From IMG/VR virus record IMGVR_UViG_3300044612_000489, positions 1 through 27,873 of that record: a stretch of DNA of 27,873 nt; one strand, written 5' to 3'. Shown here in pieces: positions 8,034 to 19,588 of this stretch. Below the pieces are notes generated by a model. It did no database searches, was not told the DNA's origin, and saw nothing but the letters and a program-made list of their open reading frames with translations. This DNA comes from a virus. The position numbers and the translations under genes were made by a program. The stretch's first letter is position 1. Each line of letters begins with the position of its first letter.

Positions 8034-8065
8034 TTTGGTTGGTATGTGTATAACCTGTATATTTG
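8034..8065 (+). promoter_or_regulatory. Bacteroidota-type promoter (TTTG / N20 / TATATTTG)
   Basis: TTTG at 8034-8037 and TATATTTG at 8058-8065 match the -33 TTTG and -7 TAnnTTTG elements of Bacteroidota primary-sigma promoters, with a 20-base spacer in the known 19-21 range. Transcription would start near 8072, giving a leader of about 38 bases that ends AAAACCAAC-ACAA before ATG 8111. It probably drives the replication operon. Confidence 0.75.
8045..8053 (-). promoter_or_regulatory. DnaA box (TTATACACA on the minus strand) inside the promoter spacer
   Basis: TGTGTATAA on the plus strand is the reverse complement of TTATACACA, a full match to the TTATNCACA DnaA box. It lies between the -33 and -7 elements. 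The phage encodes its own DnaA domain-IV protein at 10297, so autoregulation by it, or control by host DnaA, is possible. The second promoter has a two-base insertion (TGTGTATATAA) that breaks the box. A single 9-mer can arise by chance. Confidence 0.4.
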
Positions 8066-8110
8066 TTGTATAATAGTTCTTTATTTATTCATTCATTAAA
8101 ACCAACACAA

Positions 8111-8299
8111 ATGAAAAAGACAACAACAGGTTTCAAAGAAACTAAAAAAATTTGGAATCAACAACCATTTCTTGAAAAGCTTTTATTCTTAATGAACCAA
8201 TTTAAAATTTCACAAGATGAAGCTGAAAGGTTAGCCAAATTAGAATTTGATAAAATAGCAATTGGCTACAAATATCAAATTTATCTATTTTTAAACTAA
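8111..8299 (+). CDS. Small first gene of the replication operon (62 aa)
   Basis: I place the start at ATG 8111, downstream of the promoter and leader, not at the upstream TTG in the same frame. The product is a basic, helical protein (GFKETKKIWNQQPFLEKLLFLMNQFKISQDEAERLAKLEFDKIAIGYKYQIYLFLN). The segment ISQDEAERLAKLEF resembles a small helical repeat, but no family is recognised. It is followed by the CAGGGGTGCG hairpin, the same arrangement as at the 19.0-kb promoter. Confidence 0.6.
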   Translation: MKKTTTGFKETKKIWNQQPFLEKLLFLMNQFKISQDEAERLAKLEFDKIAIGYKYQIYLFLN

Positions 8300-8306
8300 A
8301 AAAAAT

Positions 8307-8335
8307 CAGGGGTGCGTCTGTAACGCACAATTTTT
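8307..8335 (+). promoter_or_regulatory. CAGGGGTGCG hairpin with T-run before the second gene
   Basis: GTGCGT (8312-8317) pairs with ACGCAC (8323-8328) around a 5-base loop, followed by AA and five T (8331-8335) that directly touch ATG 8336. A near-identical copy lies at 19394-19422, also after the first gene of a promoter-proximal pair. It looks like a short intrinsic terminator or attenuator, or an RNA element controlling translation of the next gene. Confidence 0.6.
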
Positions 8336-8548
8336 ATGACTATAACAAACGAAACAATTGGCGAATTGTATTTAAGAAACACAAACCGCGCCGCAGATTA
8401 TGCAGGTACTTTGGGATTCAGTCGTGGAACTTTAAGTTTAATTTTAAAGTATGTCAAAGAAAATGACATTGAACGTATTGAAAGCCTTGCACACGAAGCA
8501 TTAGAAGAAATTGAAAACGTATTTATTAAACATCAAATAAATTTATAA
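8336..8548 (+). CDS. Small helical protein, possible DNA-binding (70 aa)
   Basis: The stretch AADYAGTLGFSRGTLSLILKYVKEND could be a helix-turn-helix (helix, GFS turn, RGTLSLILKYV recognition helix), followed by an acidic helix (DIERIESLAHEALEEIENVF). If so this would be an early regulator. The ATG directly follows the T-run of the hairpin, leaving no space for a ribosome-binding motif, which is tolerated in Bacteroidota. The stop overlaps the next ATG. Confidence 0.6.
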   Translation: MTITNETIGELYLRNTNRAADYAGTLGFSRGTLSLILKYVKENDIERIESLAHEALEEIENVFIKHQINL

Positions 8549-8825: not shown

Positions 8826-9446
8826 ATGAAATTAGTAAAAATTCAGGCGGAATTAAAAGCGCCCAAAGGACAATTAAACAAATTCGGCAATTATCGTTAC
8901 CGCAGCGCCGAAGATATTATTGAAGCGGTAAAACCAATACTTCACAAACACGGTTGCGCGCTACTTATTAGCGACGAAATTGTGCAGGTTGCTGACCGCG
9001 TATATGTAAAAGCGACGGCAATGATATTTGATGAACAACACGTTGACTTTCAATTTAGGTCGCACGGTTGGGCGCGTGAAGAAGAAGTAAAAAAAGGAAT
9101 GGACGCCGCACAAATAACAGGGTCAGCTTCTTCGTATGCCCGCAAATATGCCCTAAACGGACTGTTTGCAATTGACGATACCAAAGACGCAGACGCAACA
9201 AACGAACACAAAGACGAAGTCGGGAATGACAGACGTTTATATTTGTTAACCTTGTTGGAATCCACGACATACGAAGAACAGGCAAAAGAAAAGTTGGCAG
9301 TACGTATTGAAGCAATAACAACAAATGAATCATACGACAAAGCTTTATTAAACCTGCAATCAAACCAAATACAGGACAAAGACCGTATTGCAATGGGTAT
9401 GAATTATAATCAAACAGACATTAAGAAAACAACAAAAAGAAAATAA
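8826..9446 (+). CDS. erf: ERF-family single-strand annealing recombinase
   Basis: A 206-residue ERF protein. The N-terminus APKGQLNKFGNYRYRSAEDIIEAVKPIL (residues 12-39) and the core QITGSASSYARKYALNGLFAIDDTKDAD (96-123) are the two conserved ERF blocks. These proteins form rings that anneal complementary single strands in phage recombination and genome circularisation or repair. The C-terminal third is variable and ends in a basic tail (KKTTKRK), as in relatives. It lies in the replication operon with an SSB-like gene and the initiator downstream. Its stop overlaps the next gene's ATG (TAATG). Confidence 0.88.
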   Translation: MKLVKIQAELKAPKGQLNKFGNYRYRSAEDIIEAVKPILHKHGCALLISDEIVQVADRVYVKATAMIFDEQHVDFQFRSHGWAREEEVKKGMDAAQITGSASSYARKYALNGLFAIDDTKDADATNEHKDEVGNDRRLYLLTLLESTTYEEQAKEKLAVRIEAITTNESYDKALLNLQSNQIQDKDRIAMGMNYNQTDIKKTTKRK

Positions 9447-19018: not shown

Positions 19019-19051
19019 TTTGGAATGTGTATATAACCTGTTATATATTTG
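19019..19051 (+). promoter_or_regulatory. Bacteroidota-type promoter (TTTG / N21 / TATATTTG)
   Basis: TTTG at 19019-19022 and TATATTTG at 19044-19051 with a 21-base spacer match the Bacteroidota primary-sigma promoter. ATGTGTATATAACCTG in the spacer nearly repeats the first promoter's spacer (two extra bases). The leader ends AAAACCAAC-GTT before ATG 19074. It probably drives the small genes and, if read through, the tail chaperone. Confidence 0.75.
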
Positions 19052-19073
19052 TGTAAACAATAAAACCAACGTT

Positions 19074-19382
19074 ATGCAAAACTTCACATTAAAATTCGGA
19101 AAGTACAAAGGGTTGCAATTTTTAAGCACACCCGTTTCTTATCAAAATTGGTTATTAAAACAGGATTGGTTTAAAATGCCTGTGGTTTTAACTGAAATGC
19201 AACAAGCACAAAAAATGGTTAGCCAATATGCCAATAAATTAAAAGGTTGGAATGGCTATTCAAAATCAGGTGCAGTAGCTTATGATAATATGTTTGAAGC
19301 TGAAAAAGCTATGGACGCAGCTTATTATAATGATTCAGACCCTTCTTCACCACGTTGGAATGGTGAATATAACTTTTTATAA
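19074..19382 (+). CDS. FGKYKG-motif protein, DUF3820-like (102 aa)
   Basis: I place the start at ATG 19074, just after the leader. The N-terminal segment FTLKFGKYKGLQFLSTPVSYQNWLLKQDWF is the FGKYKG...YLxWL module known as DUF3820 or the small C-terminal domain of some exonuclease X-like proteins. A helical linker and an acidic, aromatic end (AAYYNDSDPSSPRWNGEYNFL) follow. As the first gene after the second promoter it takes the same position as the 62-aa gene after the first. Confidence 0.65.
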   Translation: MQNFTLKFGKYKGLQFLSTPVSYQNWLLKQDWFKMPVVLTEMQQAQKMVSQYANKLKGWNGYSKSGAVAYDNMFEAEKAMDAAYYNDSDPSSPRWNGEYNFL

Positions 19383-19393
19383 CCTATCCCCCG

Positions 19394-19422
19394 CAGGGGT
19401 GCGACTGTCCAACGCACATTTT
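19394..19422 (+). promoter_or_regulatory. Second copy of the CAGGGGTGCG hairpin with T-run
   Basis: CAGGGGTGCG, one changed base, CTGT, two extra bases and AACGCACA then TTTT repeat the element at 8307-8335. GTGCG (19399-19403) pairs with CGCAC (19413-19417) around a 9-base loop. An alternative CCCC/GGGG pairing just upstream (19390-19399) would compete. It lies between the first and second genes, as in the first copy. Confidence 0.6.
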
Positions 19423-19435
19423 AAAACTTACAACT

Positions 19436-19588
19436 ATGCCAAACAAATTAAAAACACCACAGGAAAAACATTTAGAATTATTAGCTGCCCGTCAAAAGCA
19501 ATACGCCAAAGATTCTTTGGGTATGGGTTGGTTCTTTGCTATTATTGCCGGCGCTTTATTGTTAACCGCTTTAATTGAAAACCTATAA
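19436..19588 (+). CDS. Small single-helix membrane protein (50 aa)
   Basis: A basic, helical N-terminus (MPNKLKTPQEKHLELLAARQKQYAKDS) precedes one transmembrane helix (GMGWFFAIIAGALLLTALIENL, residues 29-50). It starts after the hairpin and is followed by the next gene after one base. Function unknown. Confidence 0.6.
   Translation: MPNKLKTPQEKHLELLAARQKQYAKDSLGMGWFFAIIAGALLLTALIENL

Follow-up and report, generated by a model that had tools for sequence, protein, structure and literature searches.

A short RNA element, almost certainly an H-type pseudoknot, recurs between the genes of unrelated bacterial viruses

A repeated RNA element behind the first genes of two operons in a 27.9-kb virus contig (the whole stretch of DNA analysed here, hereafter the window) is almost certainly an H-type pseudoknot, judging from how its bases vary together across a family whose members span 22-28 nt. 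Hundreds of unrelated bacterial viruses carry the predicted pseudoknot, and it is missing from the hosts sampled.

The window holds exactly two copies, both read directly from its sequence: CAGGGGTGCGTCTGTAACGCACAATTTTT at 8307-8335 (copy 1) and CAGGGGTGCGACTGTCCAACGCACATTTT at 19394-19422 (copy 2; Table 1). The preliminary description had called these 29-mers near-identical, and so they are once a 2-nt loop insertion is allowed in copy 2; 14 of the 15 leading bases are the same, and the ungapped match is 71% over 35 nt. Divided by structure, copy 1 reads CAG-GG-GTGCG-T-CTG-TAA-CGCAC and copy 2 CAG-GG-GTGCG-A-CTG-TCCAA-CGCAC, so that both contain a conserved core of 22-24 nt, CAGGGGTGCG-N-CTG-U(CC)AA-CGCAC. 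As had also been pointed out, each copy follows the first small gene of a promoter cassette, with a TATATTTG box and a AAAACCAAC leader ahead of that gene, and the T-run of copy 1 directly abuts the ATG at 8336. The box fits the Bacteroidota -7 element, TAnnTTTG. The third copy that had been thought worth searching for was not found in the window: with 3 mismatches allowed there were 3 hits where 0.46 are expected, and the last of them, which has 3 mismatches, is unrelated. Ordinary, knot-free folding gives only a hairpin of 5-6 bp with modest z-scores, which are weak because the knot is invisible to such folding. Copy 1 scores as terminator-like on account of its AATTTTT. The CCCCC run ahead of copy 2, retained by most relatives of that site, could form an alternative fold competing with the pseudoknot. 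A gene for an Erf-like ssDNA annealing protein (phrog_155, E 6e-45) lies downstream of copy 1, at 8826-9446.

Table 1. Positions of the two predicted pseudoknots and of neighbouring features in the window
Feature	Position	Strand	Basis or remark
Predicted pseudoknot, copy 1	8307-8328	+	sequence; family covariation
Copy 1, stem 1	8307-8309/8318-8320 (CAG/CTG)	+	sequence; family covariation
Copy 1, loop 1	GG 8310-8311	+	sequence; family covariation
Copy 1, stem 2	8312-8316/8324-8328 (GTGCG/CGCAC)	+	sequence; family covariation
Copy 1, loops 2 and 3	T 8317; TAA 8321-8323	+	sequence; family covariation
AATTTTT tail, from copy 1 to ATG	8329-8335	+	not conserved in the pseudoknot family
Predicted pseudoknot, copy 2	19394-19417	+	sequence; family covariation
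Copy 2, stem 1	19394-19396/19405-19407, plus possible G19393-U19408	+	sequence; family covariation
Copy 2, loop 1	GG 19397-19398	+	sequence; family covariation
Copy 2, stem 2	19399-19403/19413-19417	+	sequence; family covariation
Copy 2, loops 2 and 3	A 19404; TCCAA 19408-19412	+	sequence; family covariation
CCCCC run 5' of copy 2	19388-19392	+	could pair with GGGG 19396-19399
Operon 1, first small gene (62 aa)	8111-8299	+	stop codon 7 nt before copy 1
Operon 1, second gene (70 aa)	8336-8548	+	ATG at 8336 abuts T-run of copy 1
Operon 2, first small gene (102 aa)	19074-19382	+	stop codon 11 nt before copy 2
Operon 2, second gene (50 aa)	19436-19588	+	downstream of copy 2
TATATTTG promoter-like box, operon 1	8058-8065	+	sequence; same box before orthologue in L049
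TATATTTG promoter-like box, operon 2	19044-19051	+	sequence; same box in L080
AAAACCAAC leader, copy 1	8098-8106	+	sequence
AAAACCAAC leader, copy 2	19062-19070	+	sequence

Across the family, stem 1 has 3 bp (NAG/CUN'), or 4 bp with a longer loop 3, and stem 2 reads nnGCG/CGCn'n'. The GG that makes up loop 1 and the AA that ends loop 3 are invariant, and loop 2 is a single variable base. We scanned the IMG/VR collection with the partner of one base at a time left open; some of the counts for the core and its variants, from three scans, are lower bounds. Five base pairs covary and, among the matches listed, the free partner was complementary in 316 of 316 cases (20+121+124+51). Among these same listed matches, a first base other than G in stem 2 pair 1 had a complementary partner in 20/20 (A-U 16, U-A 2, C-G 2), a first base G in stem 1 pair 1 was matched by C in 121/121 (55 independent clusters), a base other than T in stem 2 pair 2 was complemented in 124/124 (C-G 123, A-T 1; 47 clusters), and a second base G in stem 1 pair 2 faced C in 51/51 (18 clusters). 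The optional fourth pair of stem 1 (pair 0) is present at 115 of the 121 sites with a long loop 3 (95%), 13 times as G-U, and all Watson-Crick types are seen there; at sites with a 3-nt loop 3 the same position is mostly U-U or A-U. The inner GCG/CGC pairs, the loop GG and the loop AA are fixed, and scanning the collection for changes in pairs 3 and 4 of stem 2, or in the second G of loop 1, gave no hit at any of them.

The same fold emerges from a set of 188 clusters that share no 14-mer in their 60-nt flanks. Loop 3 is 3 nt long in 67 of these sites, at least 5 nt in the rest and never 4, and it follows stem 1, with 3 nt beside 3 bp and at least 5 nt beside 4 bp; this dependence of loop length on stem length points to H-type geometry. 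When nine pairs including both crossing stems are counted, 99.4% of cells are paired, and covariation is 0.434 compared to 0.144 in shuffled alignments (0/500 shuffles) and at most 0.064 when slid. Since the patterns behind the 188 clusters fixed part of the core, it is the free-partner scans that carry the weight. Even orthologous sites vary in keeping with the fold: before homologues of the second gene of operon 2, L216 has GAG/CTC where the others have CAG/CTG, and L030 has a short loop 3 where the others have a long one. The two marks of an H-type pseudoknot, crossing stems with covariation and loop lengths matched to stem lengths, are both found, and covariation favours the knot over an extended hairpin. 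The preliminary description had proposed folding the element with covariation across related phages and had taken it to be a hairpin plus T-run. A conserved structured RNA was right, but the conserved unit is the pseudoknot of 22-24 nt, not a terminator hairpin, and the T-run varies across the family.

The exact pattern CAGGGGTGCGNCTGTN{0,8}CGCAC was found in at least 118 viral stretches in IMG/VR against a few expected. A version with the narrower gap N{0,4} matched 11 times in 257 Gb of bacterial contigs; about half of these matches are background-like, and several lie on short or contaminant-like contigs or are without the AA. A relaxed pattern gave 31 hits in 395 Bacteroidota genomes and about 41 from reversed-pattern control columns, which places Bacteroidota chromosomes at background level. 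Annotated carriers, found by BLAST against annotated phages, include Microbacterium phage Pumpernickel, Corynebacterium phages PSonyx, BFK20 and phi674, Mycobacterium phages of Bclasvirinae and Pclasvirinae, and Stephanstirmvirinae of E. coli and Klebsiella, among them the K-12 phage Bas62 (JohannJBalmer). The element also lies between genes in a microvirus (after VP1) and in the crAss-like phage cr1_1, and the copy of Klebsiella phage 05F01 overlaps a gene annotated as hypothetical. BLAST also gave weak hits in phages of Synechococcus, Rhizobium and P. aeruginosa, which fall inside coding sequence and look like chance. Most of the approximately 100 records examined have one or two copies, located between genes on the coding strand and, with the exception of one record, on one strand per record. 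Four loci (L043, L072, L280 and L314) have two family pseudoknots 0.2-0.8 kb apart in one phage. Close relatives of the window keep the element (L054/L061, L074, L080). The duplicated regulatory cassette proposed in the preliminary description holds insofar as the element is repeated at equivalent places of two operons together with promoter and leader; the element itself is phage-wide and no private duplication.

For 181 clusters with an upstream ORF, the core lies 5-9 nt after the stop codon in 116 and at most 4 nt after it in 4; the distance from the stop codon to the first paired base almost never falls below 5 nt and has its mode at 6. The distance distribution starts at 5 with a 3-bp stem 1 and, bar those four sites, at 6 with a 4-bp stem 1, and annotated mycobacteriophage genes show similar spacing. 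The next ATG is found 6 to more than 100 nt downstream of the core. Many pseudoknots stand before a tRNA, ending 1-7 nt from it, or sit inside tRNA arrays: the core is followed by a tRNA after 3-6 nt in L134, L262, L077 and L228, within a few nt in cr1_1 and, judged by eye, after about 1-8 nt in L150, L192 and L194. L150 has its pseudoknot between tRNAs with no convincing ORF. In phi92, phAPEC8 and Bas62 the final tRNA of a cluster precedes the pseudoknot by about 50 nt. The genes upstream are diverse, SSB-like at only some sites. In Stephanstirmvirinae, a structured segment of about 50 nt (GCCAGCGGU...GCCUAGUUCCUUC) is conserved between the last tRNA or gene and the knot (L401:1449-1500, L402:1447-1500, L136:1445-1501); it is possibly a small RNA with the knot as its 3' part.

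Some relatives provide a natural experiment. L049 has a homologue of the second gene of operon 1 (67% identity), and L080 has one of the second gene of operon 2 (90%); both homologues stand directly behind a TATATTTG promoter, with no first gene and no pseudoknot. The remaining homologues found all have the knot, except for one partial match in L026, and in relatives of operon 2 the first gene differs while the knot and the second gene stay. The pseudoknot is thus absent where no gene precedes, an observation that is only suggestive, because there are two cases and most of the loci were fetched for holding the core. The 19074-19382 slot itself, with unrelated first genes among close relatives and a constant second gene, is hypervariable, and such a slot behind the second promoter is a good place to seek anti-defence genes. 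The preliminary description had also suggested a possible translational switch. A switch acting on the second gene does not agree with the wide range of distances to the next ATG, nor with promoter-adjacent orthologous second genes that do without the element.

The element appears to be an unannotated and undescribed cis-acting viral RNA pseudoknot, and the chance that its function sets it apart as a class of its own is a real one. No family in Rfam 15 covers the core near its gathering score, hits elsewhere being tRNAs or far below gathering scores, and the open-access literature, searched by sequence and topic (preprints and subscription papers being outside this scope), yielded no description of it. 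The T4-type gene 32 pseudoknot is, according to a 2010 review, possibly the only viral pseudoknot in translation autoregulation (PMC3014915). This translational operator of T4/T2 gene 32 mRNA is likewise a compact H-type fold in a phage message (PMC3014915); however, it lies 67 nt upstream of the start of one gene, has gp32 as its ligand and occurs only in some T4-like phages, whereas our element has a different sequence, stands behind stop codons or ahead of tRNAs and is shared by unrelated phages. Autoregulation by SSB was also rejected, as diverse genes precede the element where the operator stands upstream of the SSB gene that it controls. The xrRNAs of eukaryotic RNA viruses (coremin/xrRNA-C, flavivirus, luteo/tombusvirus) are similarly short folds; they too have invariant loop bases, occur in 3' UTRs and between genes, and share the roadblock idea (PMC10520033). 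Nevertheless, they face 5'-3' exonucleases in eukaryotes and have no sequence relation to the phage pseudoknot; coremin consists of two hairpins with a spacer (consensus GUCCGAAGACGUUAAACUAC), a different sequence and topology. T7 RNase III sites and REP elements, which act as 3' stabilisers, are also intercistronic, are left at 3' ends and protect upstream messages, but they are plain hairpins without a conserved sequence across phages. The BWYV and MuLV frameshift and readthrough pseudoknots resemble our element in H-type geometry and spacer length, but it has no slippery site, frame lock or extended product. ToxI-type RNA antitoxins are small RNA pseudoknots of phage relevance too, made as tandem repeats with a toxin gene, whereas the phage element occurs as single intergenic copies, one or two per genome, whose consensus is the same from host to host. 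Lambda nut and HK022 put sites are short RNAs, one or two per genome, after the first gene of early operons; they have other folds, and the operon position of the phage pseudoknot varies, being near the 5' start in the window, unlike in BFK20.

From the fold, the distribution among phages and the spacing we infer, tentatively, that the pseudoknot may be a mechanical boundary that keeps the upstream RNA intact at its 3' end, probably by resisting 3'-5' exonucleases. It would remain folded while a ribosome occupies the stop codon; downstream cleavage would be carried out by RNase P at a tRNA 5' end or by other endonucleases in A/U-rich spacers; the pseudoknot would then halt 3'-5' exonucleases, and the upstream message would persist as a separate stable RNA. 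The hard-edged spacing suggests a knot that has to remain folded just beyond a ribosome on the stop codon; the placement next to tRNAs and the sites free of ORFs suggest that its job is not strictly translational, and host independence suggests that the target is either the fold itself or a universal enzyme. Since the block would lie in the RNA fold, such a boundary would work in any host. If cleavage downstream, such as that by RNase P at a tRNA, were followed by a block to 3'-5' exonucleases, most of these observations would be accounted for. Nonetheless, one or two copies per genome are few for a general mRNA stabiliser, the intrinsic terminator that can occur 15-45 nt downstream of the pseudoknot in Stephanstirmvirinae (L136, L402) should already protect the 3' end, and an exonuclease block between the tRNAs of L150 could hinder trimming of the upstream tRNA. 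It is tempting to speculate further that the element is a universal RNA roadblock, the bacterial-virus counterpart of xrRNAs, one self-sufficient fold that partitions polycistronic phage transcripts into stable units in any host and has spread over bacterial phyla by exchange between dsDNA tailed phages and an ssDNA microvirus; taken jointly, these propositions are conceivable but doubtful.

The spacing to the stop codon would equally be expected of an element that faces the ribosome, which is the main rival of a 3' boundary. The pseudoknot would then sit at the mRNA entry of a terminating ribosome, where it would keep 70S ribosomes that have finished termination from sliding on into the following cistron or tRNA, or would affect termination and reinitiation. 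The first paired base 5-6 nt past the stop codon, with a hard edge that tracks stem length, matches the spacer of recoding pseudoknots; the absence of the knot where no gene precedes agrees with this idea, and coremin xrRNA, another compact viral roadblock, also blocks scanning ribosomes (PMC10520033). We nevertheless regard it as unlikely, given sites without an upstream ORF (L150 between tRNAs, phi92 and phAPEC8 after tRNA clusters). Alternatively, the element might serve the RNA downstream of it by marking or protecting its 5' end, either against 5'-3' exonucleases in the manner of an xrRNA or as a processing site, and so replace a promoter at internal genes. L080 and L049 do have a promoter where relatives have the pseudoknot, with a similar short leader to the ATG, and mycobacterial hosts possess RNase J. 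However, to our knowledge enterobacteria, the hosts of phi92, phAPEC8 and Bas62, have no classical 5'-3' exoribonuclease, a strict distance to the upstream stop codon would not be expected, and the 5' end of a tRNA is made by RNase P anyway, all of which makes a 5' boundary improbable. There is a similarly small chance that the element is a binding site for a conserved phage or host protein, or a trans-acting decoy RNA like the pseudoknotted ToxI antitoxins. The invariant GG, GCG/CGC and AA and the low copy number would suit either, but the same core is found in phages of Bacteroidota, Actinomycetota and enterobacteria, its neighbourhoods showed no gene in common, and a decoy would not need stop-codon spacing.

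A role in transcription, either as an intrinsic terminator or attenuator (the latter proposed in the preliminary description) or as an antitermination RNA of the nut/put kind behind an operon's first gene, seems very unlikely. Both window copies do occupy such a place, comparable to that of lambda nutR behind cro. As a terminator or attenuator the element was rejected: copy 1 alone resembles one, the T-run is not conserved and GC-rich members are without it, covariation is that of a knot, and many members stand before tRNAs or inside tRNA arrays. Furthermore, real terminators occur separately downstream, and the BFK20 copy lies about 1.3 kb before the annotated operon end. Recoding at the end of the upstream gene (stop readthrough or frameshift), to which the 5-9 nt spacer and a TTTAAAC before the stop codon at copy 1 might point, is mostly refuted and has next to no probability, with slippery heptamers at 11/160 sites versus 4.5% of control gene ends, spacing that is not frame-locked (65/49/46) and a median extension past the stop codon of only 14 codons.

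One short RNA with a fixed core in very different phages implies that phages share an RNA-handling problem which a single fold solves in Bacteroidota, Actinomycetota and enterobacteria. Because unrelated phages carry this apparently undescribed pseudoknot and the hosts sampled do not, it probably does a general job in the handling of viral messages. With Bas62 of E. coli K-12 and M. smegmatis phages among the carriers, its function is directly testable. The succession of stop codon, about 6 nt and pseudoknot offers a new annotation marker and, if the block of exonucleases or ribosomes is true, the element would be a very small portable part for bacterial mRNA control. Two gene neighbourhoods may be recorded in addition. 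An RtcB-like RNA ligase gene is found near the pseudoknot in both L134 (Pumpernickel) and L403 (PSonyx). In L025 (1-1100, - strand), a DUF932-like gene (phrog_1221) has pseudoknots on both sides that differ in stem sequences, GAG..CTC with a GCGCG stem before the gene and CAG..CTG after it.
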